This document shows, piece by piece, positions 31,339 to 44,365 of a stretch of DNA of 64,000 nucleotides. The stretch's first letter is position 1. The number at the start of each line of letters is the position of its first letter. A program made the translations under genes and the position numbers. The notes below the pieces were generated by a model, which did no database searches, was not told the origin of the DNA, and worked only from the letters and a program-made list of their open reading frames with translations. Origin of the DNA: Gammaproteobacteria bacterium (GTDB taxonomy: Bacteria; Pseudomonadota; Gammaproteobacteria; Eutrophobiales; Eutrophobiaceae). The DNA lies in contig JAPPLI010000124.1 of the NCBI GenBank assembly GCA_028819495.1, positions 1 through 64,000 on the forward strand, given 5' to 3'.

Positions 31339-31401
31339 CCAGTAAAAAACTTATTCCTTATTTTAACAAAGTCATCCACTTCATATTTGAATGTGACTGA
31401 A

Positions 31402-34400
31402 ATGACGGGCCAACTGTTCAAACAATACTTTTTGACTGATGGTATCCGGGAGACCCCGCAGTGGCGGGAGTCTATGAAACACGCGGAGACGTTTACGAAG
31501 TTTGTTGACGCAATTTCCACCTGTTTCAATAAATTCAGCTATTTCAACAATCCTAATGAAGCAGTCACGGAAAAGGAACTCATTTGCCCAATGTTGGATG
31601 CGCTGGGATGGACCGACTATCTGCCGCAACAGGGATCAACCCGCAAGGAAGACATCCCTGATCATTTGTTGTTTGCTGATGCCGAAGCCCTGAAACGGGC
31701 CATCGCACGCGGTACATCGAAAGATCGTTATAGAGACGCACTATTGGTACAGGAGAGTAAACGATTTGCCCGGTCTCTCGATAACCGGGAAGAGGGCGAC
31801 AAGATACAGGAAGGTACTCCCCATGGGCAGATACTACGCTACCTCTCAACCGCCGATATTGTCTCAGAGGGAAACATTCGCTGGGGCATTCTTACCAATG
31901 GTAGTGTCTGGCGGCTATATGACCAGCGTGCCCGGCCTCGCTCTACTGGCTTTTTTGAAATCGACCTCCAGGGTTTCCTGAATGAAGATAATGAAGACGG
32001 GTTGAGAACGTTTTTCCTCTTATTTCGCCGCGAAGCACTTGTGCTTGGTCAGGGCGCAACGTCTACTTTTCTTGAAACTGCGCTCGCGGAAGGCCGGCGC
32101 TACGAAGAAAAGGTCACCCAAGACCTTTCCAGTGTAGTTTTTGACCGTGTATTTCCCAAAGTCGTCACAGCGCTTGCAAACACTGCCGGAGCCAGCCTGC
32201 CAGAGGTTCGCTCCGCCGCGTTGATCTTCCTGTACAGGGTGTTATTCATCCTGTATGCCGAGGACCGTGGTCTGCTACCCGTTAATGACCTTCGATATGA
32301 TGACTACGGCCTGCGTAAGCGTGTTCGTGACGACATTGCGCAGAGGACGGCGCAGAATGACGTTTTTTCAGGGATGGCAGCCAACTACTACAATCGCCTG
32401 TTGCAGCTTTTCAGACTTATCGACAAAGGTGACGCGTCAATCGGCTTGCCTCCTTATAACGGTGGTCTGTTCGCATCCACGGCCGCGCCGCTCCTTGAAA
32501 ATGTAAGTCTGTCGGATGCGGTAATCGCCGATATTATCCATGACCTGAGCCATGCTGAAAGCGGTAGTGAACGCCGCTTCGTTAATTATCGGGATATGTC
32601 CGTACAACAACTGGGGTCGCTCTATGAAAGGTTGCTGGAACGCGAACCGGTACGAGCAGCAGACGGCAGCGTGTCTGTGCGTCCCAATCCTTACGTGCGC
32701 AAGGACAGCGGCAGCTTCTACACACCACAGGAACTGGTTGACTTGATTGTGGAGCAGACCCTCAAGCCGCTGGCTGAAGAATGTCTGCAAGAGTTTGAAA
32801 AAAGGGCAGAAGCGCTGAAGAGTGACCACCGTCCTAAACCTGAACGACACGCCGAACTCGCCAAACTGGACCCCGCCGTGGCGGTTCTGAACCTTAAAGT
32901 CCTGGACCCCGCTATGGGTAGCGGTCACTTTCTCGTCACTGCGGTGGATTTCCTGTCAGATTACATTGCCAACCTGATCGAGTATGTGCCCATAGTGCCG
33001 GAGTGGCTCAACGGCGAGTATATATCACCCCTCGTTGAACGAATAGACACAATTCGGACGGATATATTGGACCGGGCTGACAAGTCCCGCTGGGTAATCG
33101 ATAAAGCGCAGTTTACCGACCAGGCCATTATCCGACGTATGGTGTTGAAACGCTGTATCTACGGTGTGGACAAGAACCCACTGACTGTGGAACTGGCCAA
33201 AGTATCCTTATGGCTGCACAGTTTCACCGTAGGAGCCCCGTTGTCGTTCCTGGACCACCATCTGCGTTGTGGCGACTCATTGCTCGGCCTTCAAATCAAA
33301 GACGCCAATGAAGAGTTGTACAGGCTTGGCACACTGTTTGTTTCCAGCGCTATCCAGGGCGCGGAGAACGCGGCCGCAGGCATGCAACTCATCGAGGAGA
33401 TGTCGGACACAGACATATCAGAGGTGCAGCAATCGATTGACCTGTTCAGTGGTGTTGAAGAAACTACGTCCGTATTACGCGGATTTCTGGATTTTGTATG
33501 CGGGTTGCGTTGGTTGACTTCGGGCATGGGCAAATCAGAACGAATGAAATTTGAGCTCCCCATTAACCAGGTATTGGAAGCTGACCCGGATAAAGCCTAC
33601 CAGTTGTTATCCTGCGGTCCAGCCAGCGCAGAGGAAAAAACCTCCCCTTTTGGCGTCTTGTGGAATCAAGCTGTTTCCATAGCAAGGCGGGAAAGCTTCC
33701 TGCATTGGCAGGTTGCTTTCCCCGGCGTTTGGAAACATTGGCAGGAGCGGAATCCTCAAGGAGGATTTGACGCTGTCATCGGTAATCCGCCCTGGGACCG
33801 AATCAAGCTGCAAGAAGTGGAGTGGTTTGCGACTCGCGCCCCAGATATTGCGCGCTTTCCGGCCGCCGTACAGCGAAAGAAAGCGATAAAAGAATTACGT
33901 GAACAGGGGGACCCGTTAGCGGACGAATTCGATACGGCAAAAAACCGCGCCGACGAACTGGGCGTGATGATTCGTAAATCGGATCATTATCCCCTGTTGA
34001 GCGGTGGTGATATAAACCTTTACTCCCTGTTTGTAGAAAGGGCAATGACCCTGATCAAACCGGATGGTCTGGTTGGACTGCTTACGCCCTCAGGTATCTA
34101 TGCCGATTTAACAGCAGCCCGGTTCTTCAGGTCTGTTTCTACGAATGGGCAAGTTGCCGGTTTGTTCGACTTCGAAAACCGCCGTTTGGAAACTGGTCTG
34201 CCTCCGTTTTTCCCTGACGTAGATTCTCGTTTCAAATTCTGTGCCCTGATATTCAGCGGTAAGGAGCGGACTTTTGAAGAGACCCGTTGTGGTTTTTTTC
34301 TTGGCAGAGCCAGCACAATCAGTGACCCGGACCGCTGTTTCCCACTGTCACCTGGGGATTATGCTCGCGTAAACCCCAACACCGGCACTGCGCCGGTTTT

Positions 34401-35576
34401 TCGCTCGCGTCGCGATGCTGAAGTAACCCGCCGTATCTATGAGTGTCATCCCGTTCTGGTTGACAGGTCGTCAGGCAAGGAAGTCAAGGCATGGCCGGTT
34501 AAGTACATGACCATGTTTCACATGACCAATGACTCCCACCTGTTTCGTACACGCGAAGAACTTGAAGAGAAGGAAGGTGCGTATCCTATCGGTGGCAATC
34601 GCTTTAACAGTCCGGAAGGGGAGTGGGCGCCACTTTATGAAGGCAAGATGGTGCAGGCTTTCGATCATCGTGCAGCCAGCGTGGTGGTTAATCCGGCCAA
34701 TTTGAACAGGCCGGCACAGCCCGTATCGGCTACTTTGGAACAACATCAGGACCCGGATTGGCTGCCAGACCCGCAGTTTTGGGTATTGGCGTCGGAGTGC
34801 TACTGGCAAGCTGAGCAAAAATGGGTGCTAGGCTTTAAGGAAATTACCGCGTCCACCAATATCAGAACGTTCATTGCATCACTTTTTCCTGCCGTCGGAT
34901 TCGGTAATAAAAGGAACCTCTAAAAATGCCCTCCGTGGCATTTTTAGAGACGGAAACGGAAAAGTGCGATTTTCCGTTTCCTTCATTTTCAATCACTTAC
35001 GTGATTAAAAATGGCAGCATATCCTTATGCTGCACGGGCGCCTCTAATTTTTAGAGGTGCCCTAAAGTGCCAATTCTAAAACCTGAAACAGGTGTCCGTA
35101 ATGAATGGCTGTTGGCTGCTAATTTCAATTCAATTGTCTTTGATTTTACGGCTCGGCAAAAAATTCAAGGCCAGACATTGAACCTGTTTATTGTCGAACA
35201 ACTTCCAGTCATCGCGCCGGACGACTATGACAAACGGTTTGGTGAAGCAACTGCATATGACATCATCCGTGACCATGTGTTACGTCTTACCTACACCTCC
35301 GGTGATATGGCCCCCTTTGCCCGCGATATCGGTTACGACGGCCCTCCATTTATTTGGGATGAAGAGGAACGCGGACACCTGCGAGCCCGGCTTGATGCTT
35401 TGTACTTCCACCTGTACGGCCTGACTCGGGAAGACGCAAGTTACTTGCTGGACACTTTTCCCATCGTCCGTAGGGAAGATGAAGTAAGGTTTGGCAGTTA
35501 CCGCACTAAAGCCCTTGTTCTGGCATACATGAACGCACTGGCGGCTGGTGATACTGAAACCGTGGTAGTGTTATAG
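31402..35576 (+). pseudogene. Type IIG-like restriction-methylase, disrupted by a 151-bp element
   Basis: The frame opens near 31387 (TTG; ATG at 31402) and runs to 34911, is broken by the element at 34912-35062, then continues from GTG 35067 to the stop at 35576. Removing the element and one TAAA copy rejoins the frame exactly and would give about 1340 residues. The N-terminal part has a nuclease-like pattern (KEDIPDHLLF then LLVQESKRFARSLD). The methylase core has SFYTPQELVDLIVEQTLKPL, LDPAMGSGHFLVTAVDFLSD, GVDKNPLTVELAKVSLWLHS and the catalytic DAVIGNPPWDRIK (N6-adenine type). The C-terminal region may hold target recognition. As it stands the product ends 4 residues after the insertion (RNL plus a stop within them) and lacks about 170 residues. 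Confidence 0.8.
34912..35062. mobile_element. MITE-like multi-hairpin element (family A) inserted in a restriction gene
   Basis: 151 bases bounded by TAAA on both sides (34908-34911 and 35063-35066). The ends are AGGAACCTCTAAAAAT and its imperfect complement ATTTTTAGAGGTGCCC. Inside are successive hairpins: AAAAATGCCCTCCGTGGCAT closing on TTTTTA; GGAAACGGAAAAGTGCGATT closing on TTCCGTTTCC; a TTTTCAATCAC/GTGATTAAAAA pair; and GCAGCATATCCTTATGCTGC. The order and the TGCGATTTT loop match the 7371-7520 copy although the arms differ. It carries no ORF. Confidence 0.75.
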
Positions 35577-35602
35577 AGAAGTCGAAGACTGCTGGATGGC
35601 CG

Positions 35603-36055
35603 TCAGTCTGAATTTCTTTGGCAGGAGAGCTTCGTTTTGCCATTTTTCCTTGTCTGCGGTTTGCGTTTCTTGCCGAGGTATTTCGAAGCCTGATTGATTT
35701 CCGATAATTCGTGCGTCGTGGGCAAGTGGTTCCGAGCAGCAAGAATCTCAACACGGTTCAGGGCTTTGATGATTGGGCGGCTCTCGATCTTACGTCTGGT
35801 ATTCGGTGACATCATATTTCGGACAAGGATCTGGCTCAGTTCGATTTTCTTGAGGCCATATTTGGTTTTATTACAGTAGAGCTTTTTCAGTTCGGAGCCT
35901 GGGTTATTTTGGCCTCTGACATTTGACAAATCCTCCCTGGAAAATGTGGCATGGCCATCTGCCAATTCATTCAGTGCTTCAGCAATCTCAGTATTGGAGA
36001 AATTATCGAACTCGAACGAGTTCCTCCATATCCGTATATACTCCGGCCTGGTCAC
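35603..36055 (-). CDS. Hypothetical protein, last gene of the Panacea operon
   Basis: 150 residues with a GTG start at 36055 that overlaps the stop of the preceding short ORF by 4 bases. The sequence is helical and basic at the C-terminus (KYLGKKRKPQTRKNGKTKLS); I do not recognise a family. The upstream 71-residue ORF plus this one could be one protein split by a frameshift at GLFAM/TRPEYIRIW, because the helix composition continues across the overlap. Confidence that the region codes on this strand is moderate. Confidence 0.5.
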   Translation of the reverse strand: MTRPEYIRIWRNSFEFDNFSNTEIAEALNELADGHATFSREDLSNVRGQNNPGSELKKLYCNKTKYGLKKIELSQILVRNMMSPNTRRKIESRPIIKALNRVEILAARNHLPTTHELSEINQASKYLGKKRKPQTRKNGKTKLSCQRNSD

Positions 36056-36267
36056 ATAGCAAATAGCCCCAATCGCTCCAAACGTATCAGGCGCTCTCGA
36101 TTAATGTTGAGGCCACGTTTCGAACAAAACATCACGAAAGCATTAGTGCTCAGCAACCGGCAGGCTAGAACAGCACCACTCTCAACTATGGCGCGTCCAG
36201 CATTGTCCGGTATGGTCAGCAGATTTTCGTTAGAAGTTTTCTTACTGTTGAATTGAGATTTCGGCAT
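36052..36267 (-). CDS. Hypothetical short protein (possibly frameshifted N-terminal part)
   Basis: 71 residues. It contains CRLLSTNAFVMFCSKRGLNI followed by NRERLIRLERLGLF, a helical pattern often found in the first third of larger bacterial proteins of unknown function. The stop comes directly at the start of the next ORF. A one-base change there would fuse both into about 220 residues. It lies 23 bases after the putative toxin gene on the same strand. Confidence 0.45.
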   Translation of the reverse strand: MPKSQFNSKKTSNENLLTIPDNAGRAIVESGAVLACRLLSTNAFVMFCSKRGLNINRERLIRLERLGLFAM

Positions 36268-36290
36268 GTAGAAAAGATTAACAAGAGATG

Positions 36291-36677
36291 TTATAGGGCA
36301 ATTACTCTCAGAAATCTCCGAGTCTGTGGAGACACGTATAATCCATTTTGTACCCGTTTTAACAATTCATCAGGCAGTGGCTCATGCGGAGTGAATAATG
36401 AGGCACTGACTTTTTGAATTAAACTTTCTTCCCTGTCTACCCTGGCATGTCTGTACGCAATATAACTTCGTTGTTTAACAAACGGATGGCTTCCTGGTTC
36501 CAGTATGCACGTTTTGTCATACGGCGCTTTTCTTACACTGCTTACATTAACCAAAACTGATGAGTTTATATGCCCGGCAAAGTCTTTCGGTTCATTCAGT
36601 ATGATGAAGAGGTGTTTTCCTCTCGGACCGGAGGGAATGATTAATGTACCTCCTGGTATGCAGGTCCATTTGCCCAT
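36291..36677 (-). CDS. Putative toxin paired with Panacea antitoxin (PemK/MazF-like beta-rich protein)
   Basis: 128 residues. GGTLIIPSGPRGKHLFIILN, SSVLVNVSSVR and CILEPGSHPFVKQRSYIAYR give a beta-rich layout reminiscent of the PemK/MazF SH3-like fold, in which short strands surround an early glycine-proline loop. It lies 26 bases after the Panacea-domain gene in the same direction. Panacea (DUF4065) proteins neutralise many unrelated toxin folds, so the neighbour is the expected toxin. The family call is tentative and no catalytic residues can be named. Confidence 0.5.
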   Translation of the reverse strand: MGKWTCIPGGTLIIPSGPRGKHLFIILNEPKDFAGHINSSVLVNVSSVRKAPYDKTCILEPGSHPFVKQRSYIAYRHARVDREESLIQKVSASLFTPHEPLPDELLKRVQNGLYVSPQTRRFLRVIAL

Positions 36678-36703
36678 ATCCTGCTCGAACTGACTTAATC
36701 TGA

Positions 36704-37276
36704 TTAATGGCTCGTTGTCGCAGAACTGAACATTTTGTCCAGTTCCTCTTCATCGCGCATCCTCTGTTCGAGTTCCCTGACAACCTCAGGTTTGTACCCG
36801 ACACAATTTAATACCCTGCTGTATGGGATGAGTTGCGATGTATCTCCGGGGTCTTCCCACTCCGGGCAAATCTTATGTGTAATGTCGCGGAGCTTGTACT
36901 TGCTGTATTGACCGAACTTGCCCCATATGAAATCAAGAATTTCCATATCTGCGTCACTTAATTGCGTCAACTGATCGGCGGGGTCGTGTGCCGGCTGTAA
37001 TCCAAGCTGGTGTCCGGCCCTGGCGCTGACCCAGCTTTCCCACCCTCCTTCTTCTGAATCTGTGAAACCATTAATATGATCCAGCGTTTTTGATAATACC
37101 GGACCATGCTTCATGGAAACCAGGACATCACCTATTATAGGTTCCCCATACCTGGCAAGAGATTCGCGCTCTGCTAGGTACATTAACTTCATGAGTTTTA
37201 ATATTTCGATTGTGCCGCCGGCGCGGGAAATAAAGAATGCGGCTGTTTGAGCAGCTCGCTGTTCACTATATGACAT
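36704..37276 (-). CDS. Panacea-domain (DUF4065) antitoxin-like protein
   Basis: 190 residues from ATG 37276. The domain starts with AAFFISRAGGTIEILKLMKL and continues MYLAERESLARYGEPIIGDV then MKHGPVLSKTLDHI, the SocA-like/Panacea signature. Panacea proteins act as antitoxins in PanAT systems and are also found in prophages. The C-terminal third is charged. It is the first gene of a four-gene minus-strand operon whose second gene is the probable toxin. A 15-bp perfect palindrome (AGTGAACGGTTCACT) at 37360-37374 upstream is a possible operator. Confidence 0.8.
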   Translation of the reverse strand: MSYSEQRAAQTAAFFISRAGGTIEILKLMKLMYLAERESLARYGEPIIGDVLVSMKHGPVLSKTLDHINGFTDSEEGGWESWVSARAGHQLGLQPAHDPADQLTQLSDADMEILDFIWGKFGQYSKYKLRDITHKICPEWEDPGDTSQLIPYSRVLNCVGYKPEVVRELEQRMRDEEELDKMFSSATTSH

Positions 37277-37359
37277 ATTAGATGCTCAACGATGTTCCCT
37301 GAGATATGGATAAAGTTCCTGTTGTTCGATACATATAGACTTTTCTGTTGGATTAGTCA

Positions 37360-37374
37360 AGTGAACGGTTCACT
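37360..37374. promoter_or_regulatory. 15-bp palindrome upstream of the Panacea operon
   Basis: AGTGAACGGTTCACT is a perfect dyad of 7-base arms around one G. It lies 84 bases upstream of the Panacea start and 44 bases upstream of the divergent TTGACA promoter, so it could control either direction. Assignment as an operator is inference. Confidence 0.35.
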
Positions 37375-37417
37375 ATCGGCGCCAAGGAAACGCGGATGAC
37401 GCACGAAAAATAATTCC

Positions 37418-37445
37418 TTGACAATGGCGCCGGGGTATTTATACT
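37418..37445 (+). promoter_or_regulatory. Sigma-70 promoter of the tRNA-array leader
   Basis: TTGACA (37418-37423) and TATACT (37440-37445) with a 16-base spacer, close to consensus and the strongest-looking promoter in this part of the window. Transcription would start near 37452, only a few bases before the ATG of a 49-codon ORF, so the message would be nearly leaderless. Confidence 0.65.
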
Positions 37446-37455
37446 CCGCCGCACT

Positions 37456-37605
37456 ATGAACACAGCCCTGATAACGACACGCCACAGTTATTCGGAACCG
37501 GCCGTGGCCGGCACTGCGCCGATACGCGCCGCCGCCATGCCTGATGCCGTCAAACGCGCGGCTTTTTTCCGTTCTAATGAGGATAAAAACGAACCGATGC
37601 GTTAA
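37456..37605 (+). CDS. Putative leader peptide of the tRNA array
   Basis: A 49-codon ORF (ATG 37456, TAA 37603-37605); an in-frame ATG at 37537 would give a 22-codon version. The last 17 residues are KRAAFFRSNEDKNEPMR. Ten of these are K, R, F, E or M, and their codons (AAA, CGC, CGT, TTT, TTC, GAG, GAA, ATG) are those read by the tRNA-Lys(UUU), Arg(GCG), Phe(GAA), Glu(UUC) and CAU tRNAs in the array. A hairpin (GCCTTCC 37606-37612 with GGAAGGC 37628-37634) begins right after the stop, and a second CCTTCC at 37648-37653 offers an alternative partner. A role in attenuation is inferred. No Shine-Dalgarno is seen. Confidence 0.4.
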   Translation: MNTALITTRHSYSEPAVAGTAPIRAAAMPDAVKRAAFFRSNEDKNEPMR

Positions 37606-37672
37606 GCCTTCCTGACACAATCCTGCTGGAAGGCGCGTGACAACGAACCTTCCGGAGGACATCCCCTACGAC

Positions 37673-37709
37673 AGCCCCGGTTGGTTCAAATCAACCGGGG
37701 CTTTTTTTT
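37673..37709 (+). terminator. Strong intrinsic terminator or attenuator before the tRNA array
   Basis: AGCCCCGGTTG (37673-37683) pairs perfectly with CAACCGGGGCT (37692-37702), an 11-bp GC-rich stem with an 8-base loop, followed by eight T. It lies between the leader promoter and the first tRNA, so array transcription must read through it or start elsewhere. No other promoter is evident in the 6 bases between the T-run and the first tRNA. Confidence 0.8.
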
Positions 37710-37715
37710 GCAAAT

Positions 37716-37791
37716 GGACCGGTAGCTCAGCCGGTAGAGCGGCGGGTTGAAGACCCGCGCGGCGGTGGTTCGATTCCATCCCGGTCCACCA
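37716..37791 (+). tRNA. tRNA-Phe (GAA)
   Basis: Acceptor GGACCGG pairs with CCGGTCC (37781-37787) and ACCA is encoded. The D arm is GCTC-AGCCGGTA-GAGC, the anticodon stem is GCGGG/CCCGC around the loop TTGAAGA (anticodon GAA), and the T arm is GGTGG-TTCGATT-CCATC with one G-U pair. All four stems form. It is the first of five array tRNAs with similar acceptor sequences. Confidence 0.85.
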
Positions 37792-37798
37792 GGTTTAC

Positions 37799-37825
37799 GG
37801 CATGTAGCTTAATGGTAGAACACCT
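37799..37825 (+). pseudogene. 5' half of a tRNA gene (truncated)
   Basis: GGCATGTAGCTTAATGGTAG followed by AACACC has the form of an acceptor strand plus D arm, but the anticodon and T arms are missing. The next complete tRNA begins immediately at 37826. It looks like the left half of a sixth array tRNA lost by recombination. It cannot fold as a full tRNA. Confidence 0.5.
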
Positions 37826-37901
37826 GATCCGGTGGGCGAATGGTTAAGCCACCAGACTTTCAATCTGGTAATTGCAGGTTCGAATCCTGTCCGGATCACC
37901 A
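37826..37901 (+). tRNA. tRNA-Glu (UUC)
   Basis: Acceptor GATCCGG pairs with CCGGATC (37891-37897), followed by ACCA. The D arm is GGC-GAATGGTTAA-GCC, and the anticodon stem CCAGA/TCTGG closes the loop CTTTCAA (anticodon TTC, codons GAA/GAG). The T arm is GCAGG-TTCGAAT-CCTGT. The acceptor is unlike that of chromosomal gammaproteobacterial tRNA-Glu, so aminoacylation identity is inferred from the anticodon only. Confidence 0.8.
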
Positions 37902-37909
37902 GTTTAAAC

Positions 37910-37987
37910 AGACCGGTAGCTCAGTCAGGCAAGAGCGCGCGGCTCATAATCGCGAGGATGGCCGTTCGAATCGGCCCCGGTCTACCA
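37910..37987 (+). tRNA. tRNA with CAU anticodon (Met or Ile2)
   Basis: Acceptor AGACCGG pairs with CCGGTCT, followed by ACCA. The D arm is GCTC-AGTCAGGCAA-GAGC. The anticodon stem CGCGG/TCGCG (with a G-U closing pair) holds the loop CTCATAA, anticodon CAT. The T arm is GGCCG-TTCGAAT-CGGCC. CAT may decode AUG (elongator Met), or AUA if C34 is changed to lysidine; the sequence alone does not decide. The acceptor lacks the C1-A72 mismatch of initiators. Confidence 0.8.
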
Positions 37988-37994
37988 GTGTCTT

Positions 37995-38068
37995 CCGTCC
38001 TTGGCATAGTGGCCGTGCATCCGGCTTTTAACCGGAAGAGGGGAGTTCGATTCTCTCAGGACGGACCA
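37995..38068 (+). tRNA. tRNA-Lys (UUU)
   Basis: Acceptor CCGTCCT pairs with AGGACGG, followed by ACCA. The short D arm GCA-TAGTGGCCG-TGC is unusual. The anticodon stem TCCGG/CCGGA encloses CTTTTAA (anticodon TTT). The T arm is GGGAG-TTCGATT-CTCTC. A C1-G72 pair is not usual for bacterial tRNA-Lys. It is still a complete cloverleaf with encoded CCA. Confidence 0.75.
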
Positions 38069-38071
38069 GTT

Positions 38072-38148
38072 GCGGCTGTAGCTCAGCGGAGCAGAGCGCG
38101 ACCCTGCGAAGGTCGAGGTCACAAGTTCGAATCTTGTCAGTCGCGCCA
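38072..38148 (+). tRNA. tRNA-Arg (GCG)
   Basis: Acceptor GCGGCTG pairs with CAGTCGC (one G-U pair), followed by GCCA. The D arm is GCTC-AGCGGAGCA-GAGC. The anticodon stem CGACC/GGTCG encloses CTGCGAA, anticodon GCG. The usual bacterial tRNA for CGC/CGT has ACG edited to ICG, so a GCG anticodon is unusual for a gammaproteobacterium and points to a foreign origin. The end lies 4 bases from the stop codon of the convergent STAND gene. Confidence 0.8.
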
Positions 38149-38152
38149 ACTT

Positions 38153-41100
38153 CTAAAACTCGCGTTCTTCCCGTATCTGTGCTTCTTCTATTCGGTCGTT
38201 AAGATAATCAATATATTTTCCTAGCCATATTTGAATTTTTGGGGCCGAGATTTCCGACATCCAGCGTCTGGCGGCATCCCGTTTTTTTGACAGGTAGAGG
38301 CTTTCAGATCCACTCCATCCCCCTGTACCAAAATGTCCGCAAAGCCCATCGGCTACGTGTCCACCCTCACAGAATTCTTCGATGAATAAGCGGGTCAGGT
38401 GACCATCTGTTTTGTCCAGGGTCTTTGGCAACGCCTGCTCAATTAAATGGCGCCGATTATCGACGTCTGCTTTAATCCAGTCGATAATATTCTCTGCTGA
38501 CAGGTAGAGGATGGAACCGTGTTCGGGAGTATCATCGAAGCTGACAACATCACCCAACCATGGAATGAGTTCATAATGCTTCTTTGACTCAGATACCAAC
38601 AGGTTGGAGACGATATTCCATGTCTCTTGTGGGTGGTCCTTCGCTATCTCGTCGGCCAACCTGGCAATTCTGCCAAAATTGCTATAACGGGAAAGCCGCC
38701 TTGTATCGGTCGTGATTTCTCTGAACAAGTCCATTTTCCTGTGGGGATATTTCTTGATAAATCCCTTTGCAATCTTATCCCAGTAATACCCATACATTTG
38801 ATCCTGATTATTGTCGGAAGGTATATTACTCAGTACTTTAAAAATCAGATCTTCAGGGAAATCTCCCGTGGAGTCCTCACCAAAATAATAATTATGGACA
38901 TGCTGCATACAAACATTGATTGAGGCGTCGTCAGCATGGCTCACAAGGGCGGTAACGATCTGATGAAATAAATCGCTTGATAAACAGGTCGTTTTCTGTG
39001 TGAAAGCAAACTCCTTGAAAGCCCCTGGCTCTAATTGTTTGTCCTCAAACAAGGCCAGCATATCTCTTATAATTAATTCGGTAAGCTTGGATATACTACC
39101 AATCGCGATCTTGCGCGTCGTTTTATTATGTAATAAACGACGTATCAGGCTTTCATAACGTATGGCATTCAGAGTGCACACACCGGAAAGATAACCACGC
39201 AGGAAACGAGCATTGTTATCAGCACTGCCAGCTTCGATATAATTGATTATCGGTTCATCAAATTTTGTATCAGCCAGCTTCCCGCATTCATACCCCAACG
39301 CCCCCAACAGAAGCCCGGATGCCTGAACCAGTTCTGGTACGTACTCAGAAAATACAGCAAGATTTTTCATGTATTCTTCAGCGAGGTCCCTTACGCGCTT
39401 ATCGAGTAATGTTGCCCGCTGGGATTCTTCGTCACGAAACAGACGGTCTTTTTCCCAATTGGTATACAAAACGTAACGGCAAGTCCTTTCCCATAATGAC
39501 ATGCCTGTTAATAATTTATCCAGTTGCCGGATTCTGGCGAGTATTTTTTTATCAAGGGCATCTTTATCTATCCTGGGTTGTCGAATAACAAATTCGACCA
39601 GTGGCTTACGGTTTATTTCCCTGTCTTCAGCAATCTCGAAGAGTATATCCATTATTTCATCAGCCATCGCTTTGATGCCCACAAAACGACTGGCGGCATT
39701 TATCAATATTTCCGCGATCCGGTTCCGGTCGGTTGCATCAAATCCCTGCATTTCAGCGCGCAGGAAACGTAGTACCTGGCGCCAATAATCAAATAATTGT
39801 CCGTATGTCTTGGGACGCCAGAATTCGATCTCGGGTTTTAGCCCTTGGTACTCGGGGCCAACTAACCGAGAACCTCCGTGAATCTGTAGCCACGCTTCAC
39901 ACATTCCCAATCCAAGGGCGCGGCGACTGGCATCCTTACTCCTTACCAGATCTTCTAAAACAAGAAATCGTTTAGACGGAGGCGCTTGCGTTGTTGCTAA
40001 CTCCCGGATATTGAACAGACCGACCAGGGTCCCTTCGGAGTTATTTGAATTGTCCGCATTTTCCGCCAGCGCCATTGGGATCAATACATGTACCGAGCGG
40101 ACAAACAGTTCATCCCAGACAGCAATCTTTTCCAATGCCCATACAATATCCTGGCGGCCGGTAGTCCAGGCGTACAGTTCCTCATGTGACCATGTCTTGA
40201 TTGTCCTCTCCAACAGGGCCAGTGTCCTTGACGGGTCGGCTTCGGACAGGTATCTCAGAAATCGCATGCCCTCCTCAGATTTCAGGAATCCTTGCTCAGA
40301 AAATGGTCCGGTCGTTGATAAAATCCCTTTGACTACATGTTCTGCCTGCGGCGCCCCCTGAGCGTAAATAAACAGCTCTAAAAACCACCGTCTCATGCTC
40401 TCCGGAACTTTTTCCAGGAAAGGCTTGATTTGAAATACGTGACCATGATTCGACCAGAATTGTGTCCATAAATACACATGTAAGGCCTTTGGCACGATAA
40501 ACAGGGTATGGCGTCCCTGTAGTATGCGTTTGTTCCGATAATGTTGCACGATTTGCTGGAATCGGCCCCAAGTGATAGTTGGGTCAACGTCTTCAATACG
40601 AGCGGCAATAAATTTGGCTTCAGCGCTTACTCGTTCTTCAAAGCCGAATCGCTGAAACAGTGCGATATGATGCAAAACAGTCTTATACTGCCTTGCCTCC
40701 TGGCTGTCTGTTTTTTTGTGGCCGATAATGAAGCGGTCCCAGACAGGGATGTCGGCAGGTGATTTAAGCAAGTCGTCCGGATTACTTTTCAGGTTTTCAC
40801 CAACCAGGTGGGCGACACGAGGAGACCCTTCACACCATTTTGCCCAATTAATTAAATCTGTCTGTTGTTGGAGATATCTGAACAGGATATTTTTGATTTG
40901 CTCTTCTGGAAGTTTGGGACAGTGATATACCCGCATGGCGCTGTCGTAGGTTTCCTCAGGTCCATGGTCAATAGTAATTAATTTAATGCTGCTTCGGCCC
41001 TTAATTGCCGACCAAATCTGCGCCCTGTCACGATTACCACAGTCGTCAATAACCAATGTGACGGAATAGGTTCTGTCAGGCTTCAACAACTCGTTAAATA

Positions 41101-42226
41101 ATTTGCTCTTTTGAAAATCCTCGCCGGTGGGTACATAGACGACTGATGGTCTGATGACATCAACGTCCAGCGTTTCAAGCACTAATCGGGTTTTCCCGAT
41201 TCCCGGTTCACCGATGACACGAACATGCTGAACGGCATTTTCCTGAAGGGCCGCTCTGATGTCCTTGATTAAGGTCTCTCGTTCACTCCCAAGTTCAAAT
41301 ACTCCCTGCATCTGGGCATTGTTTCGCCAGCCTTCGATTGACATAAATCCGCCTTCGTCAAGGCCGACTAAGTCAAGACAGATAGAAGGGTATTTGTCCA
41401 GCTCGCCGACAATCTGCCCCTGTCCGTACACGCGTACTTTTGGATTGGGGTAACCGCATTTATTAAATAAATCTGTCAGAAGTTTGACTACCTCCGTGTG
41501 GTGAGTCGGTAATAAGTCATATCCGAAGGTAACAAGGGCAAAAGTGCCATCCTGTTCGAGGCAGTTTTTTACCTCACTTCCTAGTCGTTGTTTTGACGGT
41601 GTAACGTTCGATTTTCCAAATAATTCTTTCTTTAAGGCGCTGGGTTGCCAGGGTTTAAAATCGTCACCTGTCTTGATTTGATAATACGTGCTGCCTTTTT
41701 CCAACAAAGAACTGGAGACGGGTGAATTTTCCACCTTTGCATCAATACCTCCATCCGGGGCGTTGATGTTGGAAGACAGTACGATGTCTTTTGGCCAAAG
41801 TCCGTTTGCGATAGCTTCACACCGTAACAGTCTGAGAAACAAGTCCGTTCCTTGTTTTGAATCCAACTTGCCCAATTCACCCGGTGCGGGAGCAAAAGTC
41901 GATTGTATGGAAGCAATATTTTGACTACTTAAGACCGGACCTGTGTGAATTTGTACATTCTGTACGCTCAGGGTTACTCGCAGTCCGGCTTTTTTCGCGA
42001 GTGATACAAGAGCATCCAGGCTGAATTTATCCACGCGGTCTTTGAGCAAATCGTTCAGGCGAGGCTGGGTAATACCCAGCATTTCAGCCATTTGAACCTG
42101 TGTCCCGCCGATATGGTTTTGCAGATGTTGCCGCAAGTCCGACATCAATTTGGCGCGTTCGAGTATATCAGAGGATGATTCACGCTTAAGTTTTGCGAAT
42201 TGTTGCTTGATTACAGTATTTGTCAT
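38153..42226 (-). CDS. HTH - Mrr-like nuclease - STAND NTPase fusion (Avs-like)
   Basis: 1357 residues. Residues 25-85 form an XRE-type helix-turn-helix of the kind found in HigA-like antitoxins (GTQVQMAEMLGITQPRLNDL). Residues about 118-200 carry a restriction-like fold with APDGGIDAKVE (158-162) and YYQIKTG (Q183-x-K185), the D...QxK pattern of Mrr nucleases. A P-loop VRVIGEPGIGKTRLVLETL (Walker A 339-346) and TLVIDDCG (Walker B) mark a STAND-type NTPase. The remaining 800 residues are helical and could be a repeat-type sensor. Nuclease-STAND-repeat order is that of antiviral Avs proteins, which cut DNA after sensing phage proteins; the fused HTH suggests autorepression. No early stop or frameshift is seen. 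Function is inferred. Confidence 0.7.
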   Translation of the reverse strand: MTNTVIKQQFAKLKRESSSDILERAKLMSDLRQHLQNHIGGTQVQMAEMLGITQPRLNDLLKDRVDKFSLDALVSLAKKAGLRVTLSVQNVQIHTGPVLSSQNIASIQSTFAPAPGELGKLDSKQGTDLFLRLLRCEAIANGLWPKDIVLSSNINAPDGGIDAKVENSPVSSSLLEKGSTYYQIKTGDDFKPWQPSALKKELFGKSNVTPSKQRLGSEVKNCLEQDGTFALVTFGYDLLPTHHTEVVKLLTDLFNKCGYPNPKVRVYGQGQIVGELDKYPSICLDLVGLDEGGFMSIEGWRNNAQMQGVFELGSERETLIKDIRAALQENAVQHVRVIGEPGIGKTRLVLETLDVDVIRPSVVYVPTGEDFQKSKLFNELLKPDRTYSVTLVIDDCGNRDRAQIWSAIKGRSSIKLITIDHGPEETYDSAMRVYHCPKLPEEQIKNILFRYLQQQTDLINWAKWCEGSPRVAHLVGENLKSNPDDLLKSPADIPVWDRFIIGHKKTDSQEARQYKTVLHHIALFQRFGFEERVSAEAKFIAARIEDVDPTITWGRFQQIVQHYRNKRILQGRHTLFIVPKALHVYLWTQFWSNHGHVFQIKPFLEKVPESMRRWFLELFIYAQGAPQAEHVVKGILSTTGPFSEQGFLKSEEGMRFLRYLSEADPSRTLALLERTIKTWSHEELYAWTTGRQDIVWALEKIAVWDELFVRSVHVLIPMALAENADNSNNSEGTLVGLFNIRELATTQAPPSKRFLVLEDLVRSKDASRRALGLGMCEAWLQIHGGSRLVGPEYQGLKPEIEFWRPKTYGQLFDYWRQVLRFLRAEMQGFDATDRNRIAEILINAASRFVGIKAMADEIMDILFEIAEDREINRKPLVEFVIRQPRIDKDALDKKILARIRQLDKLLTGMSLWERTCRYVLYTNWEKDRLFRDEESQRATLLDKRVRDLAEEYMKNLAVFSEYVPELVQASGLLLGALGYECGKLADTKFDEPIINYIEAGSADNNARFLRGYLSGVCTLNAIRYESLIRRLLHNKTTRKIAIGSISKLTELIIRDMLALFEDKQLEPGAFKEFAFTQKTTCLSSDLFHQIVTALVSHADDASINVCMQHVHNYYFGEDSTGDFPEDLIFKVLSNIPSDNNQDQMYGYYWDKIAKGFIKKYPHRKMDLFREITTDTRRLSRYSNFGRIARLADEIAKDHPQETWNIVSNLLVSESKKHYELIPWLGDVVSFDDTPEHGSILYLSAENIIDWIKADVDNRRHLIEQALPKTLDKTDGHLTRLFIEEFCEGGHVADGLCGHFGTGGWSGSESLYLSKKRDAARRWMSEISAPKIQIWLGKYIDYLNDRIEEAQIREEREF

Positions 42227-42236
42227 ATTTGATTTT

Positions 42237-42277
42237 GTCTAATGATAACAACAAGTCTAATGTTGGTTTATATTATA
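42237..42277 (-). promoter_or_regulatory. Promoter and direct-repeat operator of the STAND gene
   Basis: On the minus strand TATAAT (complement at 42272-42277), with TGTATA 17 bases further upstream, is a plausible promoter. Two identical CATTAGAC boxes (complements GTCTAATG at 42237-42244 and 42255-42262) lie 18 bases apart, between the -10 and the start codon. This is about two helical turns, suiting a dimeric HTH repressor such as the N-terminal domain of the gene itself. The rest of the 42227-42488 intergenic region is AT-rich, with no ORF. Confidence 0.4.
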
Positions 42278-42488
42278 TCAACAATGATATAAAATATACA
42301 CTATAACGGGGATAATTTCATCAATTGCGGTGAAATGGAGGAATTGCCTTGTTATTTCCTTATTTATCTCTATAATGACAAGCAGTTATAGTTTATCTTA
42401 TCGACGACGATTGCGTGAATTTACCAGTCTTTCTCTAAATTTTCACTATTTGATATATTTTCAATAATTATTGATACTATCTATTTTG

Positions 42489-43547
42489 ATGATAAATAAA
42501 GCAATTCAAATTGAAGAAGAAGCTGGGAAAATAGTTTTGTCAGTCTTGCAACGAGTCCCCGGAATTATGGATCTCCGCGTTGAACTGGATCGCTGGATGG
42601 AAAATTATAGTGCCGACCTCCTTGTATCGTTTCGCAAGCAGAACGACAGGAAGACTTTGCTGGTTGAAGTCAAATCATCTGGTCAACCTCGATTAGCGCG
42701 CGTTGCTGTTAACCGGTTACTTCTGCTGCAGCACAAACGACCCCGTGATTATGGTGTATTTGTGGCACCTTATATCTCAGAAAGTTCAGCCGAAATTTGC
42801 AAGAGTAACGGTATCGGCTATATCGATTTTTCCGGCAATTGCTGGCTAAACCTTGATTCGATATACATAGAGATAAAGGGGAATCCGAATCGCTTTTCAA
42901 GGAAAAGTGAATTGAAATCGTTGTTCAAGCCCAGAGCAGAGCGGATACTGAGAGCCATGTTATCCGAGCCTGGATATGAGTGGTCTGCAATGGAACTAGC
43001 GAAATCTGCTGATGTCAGCATCGGCCAGGTATCCAATGTCCGCAAACTATTACTGGAACGTGAATGGATAGAGGATCAGAAAACAGGGACCAAGCTGATT
43101 GAACCTTACCAACTGCTTGCTTCCTGGTTGACCGAATATCGACCTGATAGAAGCAGCATATACGGTCTTTATGATATGGATTCGGTGGGAGATATTGAAT
43201 CGACAATCTCTGGTTTCTGTAAACGTACAGGGACCCGTTATGCATTCACTGGTTTTTCCGGCGCCTCGCGCTACGCTCCGTTTATAACCTACAATACAGT
43301 TGCTGTTTATATGAATATCTCACAAGAAAATATTAGGGAATTGCCATTCAAACCGGTAACATCCGGCGCCAATATCAGGATTATCTCTCCATATGATGAC
43401 GGGGTATTTTACGGAACCCGGAGCATACGGGACCAATCTGTGGTATCACCGGTACAGTGTTACCTTGATCTCAAGGATGAAAAAGCAAGGGGAGAAGAAG
43501 CATCTGAAGCCTTGCTGGAACAGGTGATTAAGCCATCATGGCAGTAA
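42489..43547 (+). CDS. AbiEi-like antitoxin
   Basis: 352 residues from ATG 42489. The N-terminal third has a nuclease-like core pattern (YSADLLVSFR then KTLLVEVKSSGQPRLARVAV), followed by a winged-helix segment (WSAMELAKSADVSIGQVSNV then RKLLLEREWI). This is the layout of type IV toxin-antitoxin AbiEi-family proteins, which repress their own promoter and antagonise the AbiEii nucleotidyltransferase. It overlaps the next gene by 10 bases, the antitoxin-first order. No clear Shine-Dalgarno is seen. Confidence 0.7.
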   Translation: MINKAIQIEEEAGKIVLSVLQRVPGIMDLRVELDRWMENYSADLLVSFRKQNDRKTLLVEVKSSGQPRLARVAVNRLLLLQHKRPRDYGVFVAPYISESSAEICKSNGIGYIDFSGNCWLNLDSIYIEIKGNPNRFSRKSELKSLFKPRAERILRAMLSEPGYEWSAMELAKSADVSIGQVSNVRKLLLEREWIEDQKTGTKLIEPYQLLASWLTEYRPDRSSIYGLYDMDSVGDIESTISGFCKRTGTRYAFTGFSGASRYAPFITYNTVAVYMNISQENIRELPFKPVTSGANIRIISPYDDGVFYGTRSIRDQSVVSPVQCYLDLKDEKARGEEASEALLEQVIKPSWQ

Positions 43548-44365
43548 CGAAGGTTGATTATCCCGAATTGGCAGTCAGGGCAGCGGAGTCGGTGCTGCTG
43601 GAGCTTGTCCGCATTCTTGGTGAATATCTCGATCATATCGTCGTAATCGGCGGTATGGTTCCAAAATATCTGGTGCCCAGCCCCGAGGAAAGGCACATCG
43701 GTTCAATCGACGTTGACCTAGCCCTGGATCATCGCCGTTTCGATGAACCAGGTTATCAAACATTACATAAATTACTTGATGAGCATGATTACCGTATAGA
43801 TGCTAATCACCCATATATATATCGACGAATTTTTCTCATCGATGGCAATGAAATTACCGTTCAGGTCGATTTACTTTCAGGTGAATATGGCGGTACGGGC
43901 AGAAGTCGCAGGACACAAAAGATACAGGATATCCGACCACGTAAGGCTCGTGGCGCTGACATGGCGTTTGATAATCCCGTGCATGTAAAAATTGCCGGAG
44001 AATTACCTGGGGGGGCAAAAGATACTGTCACTATACGTGTTGCAAGCATAGTCCCATTCATCGTGATGAAAGCGATGGCCATGCGGGATCGCCTGAAACA
44101 AAAAGATCCCTATGACATCTATTATTGCCTGAAATACTTTCCGGGTGGAATTGAAGAAATTGCTGAATCATTCAGCTTGTTGAGAAGAAATAAGCTGGTC
44201 GGGGAAGCCTTGGGAATTCTGGCAGAGAAATTTGACTCTCCAGATCATGTCGGCCCTGTTCATGTAACAGAATTTCTTCAAATAACCGACACGTATGAAT
44301 CGGAACTTATACAACGGGATTCCTATGAGAGAGTTCAGTACCTGATAGAAAGTTGTACTGGTTGA
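43538..44365 (+). CDS. AbiEii-like nucleotidyltransferase toxin
   Basis: 275 residues. IVVIGGMVPKYLVPSPEERH followed by GSIDVDLALD is the nucleotidyltransferase motif (glycine pair, then DxD). RASIVPFIVMKAMAMRDRLK-like sequence near residue 170 and KDPYDIYYCLKYF match the AbiEii/DUF1814 C-terminal half. AbiEii-type toxins (e.g. MenA) add nucleotides to tRNA acceptor ends and cause growth arrest or abortive infection. That target is interesting here because a tRNA array lies 5.4 kb away. The pair closes the accessory island. Confidence 0.75.
   Translation: MAVTKVDYPELAVRAAESVLLELVRILGEYLDHIVVIGGMVPKYLVPSPEERHIGSIDVDLALDHRRFDEPGYQTLHKLLDEHDYRIDANHPYIYRRIFLIDGNEITVQVDLLSGEYGGTGRSRRTQKIQDIRPRKARGADMAFDNPVHVKIAGELPGGAKDTVTIRVASIVPFIVMKAMAMRDRLKQKDPYDIYYCLKYFPGGIEEIAESFSLLRRNKLVGEALGILAEKFDSPDHVGPVHVTEFLQITDTYESELIQRDSYERVQYLIESCTG

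Follow-up and report, generated by a model that had tools for sequence, protein, structure and literature searches.

A five-gene tRNA array in a gammaproteobacterial genome is preceded by a promoter, a short open reading frame (ORF) and an intrinsic terminator, and its sequence and modelled folds indicate that it is very probably under the control of an attenuator that monitors the ribosome. Such a transcription attenuator would keep a reserve of tRNA genes silent while translation runs well, a reading of the locus that we consider probable. The anatomy of the locus, its mutually exclusive pairs, the family of homologues with their cargo and the covariation of leader codons with array tRNAs come from sequence and statistics; translation of the ORF, the direction of the switch, the inducing stress and the protective value of the array are what we infer from them. 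To our knowledge, the purpose and control of the extra tRNA arrays carried by many bacteria, plasmids and phages are largely unknown.

Organization of the locus

The 64,000-nucleotide stretch of DNA that was analysed, hereafter the window, belongs to contig C216 of a 4.97-Mb assembly of 221 contigs (G000). A promoter, a 49-codon ORF, a terminator and five tRNA genes had been predicted from the sequence alone, and a promoter scan, the ORF list, ARAGORN and Rfam located all of them where they had been placed (Table 1). The motifs CCTTCC, GGAAGG and CCTTCC announced at 37607, 37628 and 37648 are likewise present.

Table 1. Features of the attenuator and of the tRNA array in the window
Feature	Position	Strand	Source	Remarks
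Promoter TTGACA-16-TATACT	37418..37445	+	Promoter scan	G+C-rich discriminator; stable-RNA type
Leader ORF, 49 codons	37456..37605	+	ORF list, homologues	Probably leaderless start; stop abuts segment 1
Last 17 leader codons	37552..37602	+	Codon count, permutation tests	10 read by own array tRNAs
Segment 1 (GCCTTCC)	37606..37612	+	Folding	Predicted to pair with segment 2
Segment 2 (GGAAGGC)	37628..37634	+	Folding	Predicted to pair with segment 1 or 3
Segment 3 (GAACCUUCCGG; GAACC-UU-CCGG)	37645..37655	+	Folding, homologues	Predicted to pair with segment 2 or 4
Segment 4 (CCGGUUGGUUC; CCGG-UU-GGUUC)	37677..37687	+		Terminator 5' arm and loop; predicted antiterminator partner of segment 3
Intrinsic terminator (4:5) and T run	37673..37709	+	Terminator scan, folding	
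tRNA-Phe(GAA)	37716..37791	+	ARAGORN, Rfam	
tRNA-Glu(UUC)	37826..37901	+	ARAGORN, Rfam	Missing from G001 array
tRNA-Met(CAU)	37910..37987	+	ARAGORN, Rfam	Missing from G001 array
tRNA-Lys(UUU)	37995..38068	+	ARAGORN, Rfam	
tRNA-Arg(GCG)	38072..38148	+	ARAGORN, Rfam	

The promoter agrees with the consensus at 11 of 12 positions (-35 box at 37418-37423, -10 box at 37440-37445, 16-nt spacer), and no other promoter-like site was detected on the + strand between 37200 and 38400. G+C-rich discriminators are typical of rRNA and tRNA promoters, and most of the discriminators in the promoters compared below are of this kind.

The ATG of the leader ORF lies only 10 nt past the -10 box, so that a leaderless message without a Shine-Dalgarno sequence is to be expected; the missing Shine-Dalgarno, conceded as a weak point in the original prediction, is thus settled in its favour. 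The same geometry (-35 box, 16 nt, -10 box, 10 nt, ATG; distances counted by eye) is common to the window, G001, G005, G000:C217 and G218, and the last gap, also counted by eye, measures 10 nt in G053_C50, 8 nt in G145 and 7 nt in G265. Leaders of the window type, with their short gap, are therefore probably leaderless messages, and Shine-Dalgarno-like sequences are present at several other homologous leaders. The stop codon of the window leader, at 37603, touches segment 1, and in nearly all loci other than those with rtcB the homologous leaders, of 41 to 68 codons (30 in G289_C13a), also end at segment 1; leaders before rtcB are shorter, with only 10 to 26 codons.

Conservation of the peptide as the main signal was rejected because the body of the leader evolves fast. 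Between the window and G001, nonsynonymous change in the leader (0.19) exceeds synonymous change (0.10), which counts against the attenuator reading. Only the last residues recur, as x-[M/V/I/L]-[T/S/R/H/N]-stop.

The terminator stem (37673-37702) has 13 pairs, eight of them G-C by the tool's count, is followed by the T run, and folds alone at -23.4 kcal/mol (z of -5.3 against shuffles). Only 6 nt separate the T run from the start of tRNA-Phe, leaving no room for a second promoter, so that the array can be reached by read-through only. It is very unlikely that ORF and terminator form a gene of their own, for a small RNA or a small protein, that lies before the tRNAs by chance, with the promoter of the array elsewhere. 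The strong terminator does dominate single-RNA folds, and some Rfam small RNA models match weakly, below threshold; this 6-nt gap and the lack of another promoter-like site on the + strand nevertheless argue against such a gene, as do an antiterminator conserved in 31 loci and a linkage to tRNA and translation-rescue genes that recurs in unrelated families.

Mutually exclusive pairings

The terminator's 5' arm and loop find their complement in segment 3, and a stepwise series of mutually exclusive pairs (1:2, 2:3, 3:4 and 4:5) can be drawn, in which helix 3:4 would act as the antiterminator. The original prediction had been unable to link its hairpins to the terminator; helix 3:4 provides the link, and the computed alternative folds agree with it. 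Truncated transcripts of the window and of G001 fold as 1:2 and 3:4 when segment 1 is free, and as 2:3 followed by the terminator 4:5 when segment 1 is masked, as by a ribosome at the stop codon; in G005 and G000:C217, 2:3 and the terminator were obtained under masking only on the full RNA. It is thus the position of the ribosome that is predicted by folding to choose the structure. On the full-length window RNA no state is more stable than the terminator; the switch must therefore be kinetic and work while the RNA is being made, as other attenuators do.

Helix 3:4 can form in all 31 loci examined, and in 27 of them it is significant (p<0.05) against dinucleotide shuffles, the segment boundaries having been set by hand from the sequence before any energy was computed. 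Its outer helix varies on both sides (GAACC/GGUUC, GAUGCC/GGCAUC, CAGGGCC/GGUUCUG, GUUUGUC/GACAAAC), and the search models held 2:3 and 4:5 and not 3:4. Helix 3:4 is thus conserved by covariation; within the first four sequences, almost all columns were invariant and covariation was uninformative. In ensemble folds, 3:4 is favoured in 30 of 31 loci with segment 1 free, and 2:3 in 22 of 31 with segment 1 masked, being not dominant in the other nine. A shift in the expected direction upon masking (29/31) is the weakest of these three figures, since masking segment 1 necessarily frees segment 2.

The locus shares with leader-peptide attenuators a promoter, a short ORF and an intrinsic terminator before the regulated genes, in an order kept by the homologues, as well as an antiterminator that would exclude the terminator (helix 3:4) and leader codons related to the regulated genes, here through covariation with the array tRNAs.

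A family of attenuators and its cargo

Covariance models built solely from the attenuator region, with tRNA sequence excluded, recovered about 30 homologues in Gammaproteobacteria. Most precede tRNA arrays; the cargo of the others is rtcB, the gene of elongation factor EF-G, cuckoo-like RNAs, or a GOLLD RNA that contains a tRNA-Ile. A strict DNA pattern gave only two true matches in genome contigs, G001 and G005, which are gammaproteobacterial MAGs (contigs matching JAJDUB010000030.1 and JAPOQU010000100.1, respectively, in length), and none in viral contigs; two further matches in genome contigs were attributed to chance.

In G005 (L022) and G000:C217 (L030), a homologous leader and attenuator are followed by a GOLLD RNA in which a tRNA-Ile(GAT) is embedded; the GOLLD RNA scores 156.3 and 146.3 bits, respectively, with the Rfam model RF02032 (cut-off 150 bits). 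This model found no match downstream of the attenuator in the window. A third attenuator copy, in G000:C91 (L065), precedes a region resembling a decayed GOLLD. The presence of GOLLD behind a homologous attenuator offers a lead on its regulation.

A model of four sequences detected four more loci within the order. Three of them continue into cuckoo/CcsR-like hairpins, only one of which Rfam recognised, below cut-off; in the fourth (G019) the contig ends. At L066, L067 and L069 the hairpins have a C-rich (CCUCC) loop and the adjoining genes are convergent. Within the same organism family, four loci lack a downstream tRNA, a point against the attenuator reading.

Nine loci, two of them ahead of tRNA arrays, served to train model R2. 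Outside the family of the window it made 11 matches with E<1e-6, and nine of these have tRNA genes on the same strand within 1 kb downstream. A 25-sequence model added the rtcB loci G272 and G284, the EF-G locus G289, with tandem attenuators, and arrays of 7 to 20 tRNAs at G742, G747, G723, G730 and G351_C57. With G249, already a weaker match of the nine-sequence model, rtcB is found as cargo three times overall. The array is followed by slipin, a gene of unknown function and RtcB in G747, and by slipin and RtcB in G289_C20. An rrn-type boxA (CTCTTTAACAAT) lies past the terminator in about ten array loci (by eye in G145), and a DUF1127 gene lies downstream of the attenuator in G265.

Across 299 genomes of the phylum, only weak matches (E of 4e-7 or weaker) were found outside the genome of the window, and among those checked one has a tRNA nearby. 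On inspection, other weak model matches (G292, G237, G274, G156, G146, G081, G045, G051, G024, G028, G000:C40 and G005:C47) resembled ordinary post-gene terminators and were discarded.

Several features accompany the family. At L113, L105 and L145, one array or EF-G gene is preceded by attenuators in tandem, every one of which has a separate leader ORF. A divergent XRE-like gene (KNPTAVQIGQRIKQARKMAG) is conserved beside the attenuated arrays of L160, L161, L162, L163, L108, L146 and L109, and none adjoins the window array. A small basic protein with a HPLMKKGGVHEK motif, encoded inside or before arrays (L114 4643-4786, L146 10552-10716, L161 array), matched nothing in Pfam or NCBIfam in either of the two examples searched. 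Genes for an HNH endonuclease of about 190 amino acids, possibly a mobility factor, occur within or beside the arrays of L160, L162, L108 and L161. In the L111 array (G399), one tRNA was called with the ochre-suppressor-like anticodon UUA; it may be a decayed tRNA.

Leader codons and array tRNAs

The recount confirmed that codons read by the array tRNAs are concentrated at the end of the window leader (10/17, against 5/32 before, or 4/31 without the start codon; Fisher p=0.004, post hoc). The homologous arrays keep a leader ORF, and a permutation test compared the share of each leader's codons that its own array can read with the share that other arrays can read. Fourteen loci were treated as independent, which loci within one order are not fully, and codon-anticodon rules were simplified. 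The last 17 codons were tested first, followed by controls and a last-20 version, about five codon-stretch lengths or versions of the test in all; anticodons were assigned by eye from the loop for G218 Asn and G210_C6 Tyr, and an odd tRNA of G145 was left out. With the last 20 codons, the match of leaders to their own arrays is significant in frame (p=5e-5) and absent from the other two frames (p=0.74 and 0.77); it persists without the window (p=2.5e-4), without G053_C120 (p=4.5e-4) and without the G053/G210 family (p=0.004). The match extends over the whole leader, as every array tRNA of the 14 loci has a codon in its own leader (14.00 against 11.58, p<5e-5); a second tandem leader, G053_C120a, outside this count, has no Thr codon. 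The original prediction is supported in part: the refuting outcome that it had named, homologous loci with the array but with no leader ORF or no codon match, was not obtained, and the confinement of the match to the last 17 codons does not hold.

When four large arrays identified later were added (18 loci), the last-20 test gave p=4e-5, and 104 of 109 array tRNA species were covered by their own leader, against 87.6 expected (sd 3.7); in G053_C120a, G747, G723 and G730, one to three array tRNAs are without a codon in a leader. The four added loci alone provide a weak validation, their coverage (51/56 against 46.4 expected) being barely above chance. In G001, the nearest homologue, the leader end keeps GAG, GAA and ATG codons, its array being without tRNA-Glu and tRNA-Met, so that the match is a tendency and not a code; the Phe-Phe pair of the window leader is Ser-Ser in G001. 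The match is statistical in nature and tolerates changes in the array.

The attenuator could also sense translation failure of any kind (antibiotics, ribosome shortage or any stalled ribosome), the leader being merely an ORF to be finished in time and the array match weak or secondary. This would suit an attenuator that also stands before EF-G, cuckoo-like RNAs and, with its shortest leaders, rtcB, and many leaders that sample most amino acids (mean 18); the leader of Pseudomonas armZ is known to operate so (PMC13041342). We nevertheless regard it as unlikely, though less so than the other alternatives, because the own-array match is significant and frame-specific and persists when either the window or the best-represented family is taken out, and because G053_C50, with an Arg-ACG and Ser-GCT array and a leader ending in SVSVSQHRRSSRLTSKNMS, is hard to see as generic. 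The preferred reading retains part of each view: the leader is likely tuned to its array's own tRNAs, and because rtcB, EF-G and non-coding RNAs are also among its cargo, the attenuator probably responds to failing translation of any kind, to which tRNA loss would be one route.

The array and its genomic surroundings

The terminal CCA is encoded in all five array genes. The assembly, which is incomplete, yielded 40 other tRNA genes; among them, the copies with the Glu, Met and Lys anticodons of the array are only 58-69% identical to the array tRNAs, the Arg-GCG anticodon has no counterpart and no second tRNA-Phe was found. The divergence of the array tRNAs may protect them against tRNA-cutting enzymes. 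Just before tRNA-Glu, at about 37800-37825, the 5' part of a further, sixth tRNA (gcatgtagcttaatggtagaaca) was recognised by eye and appears to be a sign of array remodelling.

The region between nth and nhaA, where the array sits, is variable; G001, of the same genus, has nothing in this gap but the leader and an array of three tRNAs (Phe, Lys, Arg). In the window, defence-type cargo that G001 lacks flanks the array on either side (31387-44362): a type IIG restriction-modification gene, a SocA/Panacea gene with a partner gene, an AbiEi/AbiEii-like pair and a PD-Lambda-4-like gene. When phages and plasmids were searched with the array, only tRNA-sized matches came back.

Comparison with known systems

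The mechanistically closest system is the PA5471.1-armZ attenuator of Pseudomonas aeruginosa, whose leader we take to be 13 codons long. There, complete translation of a short leader ORF leads to termination, and stalling, including in a tRNA CCA-adding mutant, to read-through (PMC13041342), the same outcomes as predicted for the window. Unlike the window, armZ encodes a protein, an efflux anti-repressor, with no tRNA genes and no match between leader codons and cargo.

The his, thr and trp leaders of enterobacteria (RF00514 and relatives) have a similar overall shape, and in them the position of the ribosome chooses between hairpins, as is predicted for the window, whereas they carry a run of a single codon and biosynthetic cargo. 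Without translation they terminate, while antitermination is predicted for the window attenuator. Descent from a biosynthesis attenuator of this type, displaced by chance to a place before tRNA genes, seems extremely improbable to us: the GOLLD-linked copies do reach 46.4 and 40.3 bits with the Rfam His_leader model, just below its gathering cut-off of 49, yet the window, at 23.8 bits, is not a member, its leader has a single His codon and no run of any codon, no biosynthesis gene is near, and its pair order would give an ON state without translation, opposite to his and trp.

In gene content, the closest system is the trn operon and TrcR regulon of Anabaena, in which a silent tRNA array, rtcB, slipin and an HNH endonuclease are under one control and the array, with other TrcR targets, is derepressed by translation-targeting antibiotics (PMC10272220). 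The attenuator family is associated with the same gene set, under a cis attenuator instead of the ribbon-helix-helix repressor protein of Anabaena; the words "leader" and "attenuat" are absent from that paper (PMC10272220). In Salmonella, RtcB output is likewise tied to damaged tRNA, through RtcR, a sigma-54 activator with a CARF domain, and not through an attenuator (PMC7790460). Translation of an upstream ORF silences a DUF1127 gene in Sinorhizobium meliloti, and translation inhibitors relieve the silencing (PMC12218461); a DUF1127 gene is also the cargo at G265, but the S. meliloti system is probably Rho-dependent and has neither an intrinsic terminator nor a 3:4 switch. The open-access papers searched contained no account of leader-peptide attenuation of a tRNA array or of rtcB, and earlier work may exist.

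Proposed mechanism

RNA polymerase would start from the promoter, and a ribosome would load on the leaderless ATG and follow it. In the OFF state, the ribosome would reach the stop codon and cover segment 1, allowing 2:3 to pair and the terminator to halt transcription before the tRNAs. In the ON state, a ribosome delayed upstream by a tRNA that is missing, cut or uncharged would leave segment 1 free, 1:2 and 3:4 would form, and the five tRNAs would be made; failure of ribosome loading would lead to the same pairs and to read-through into the array. As leaders tend to carry codons of the tRNAs that they control, loss of an array tRNA would be the preferred trigger.

We see about even chances for a bolder reading, a class of attenuators that would sense the very tRNAs whose production they control. 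The leader would list the codons of the array, and loss of any listed tRNA, for example to an anticodon nuclease, a toxin or a phage, would release divergent replacements, accompanied in some genomes by RtcB, slipin or EF-G.

Significance

One group of tRNA arrays thus gains a concrete candidate regulator with a readable specificity, in that the leader would tell which tRNAs the cell expects to lose. One cis-acting sensor appears to link stored tRNAs with the repair of tRNA by RtcB and with the translation factor EF-G, a set for which cyanobacteria use a protein repressor. Our findings point to an as yet unreported emergency supply system for protein synthesis.
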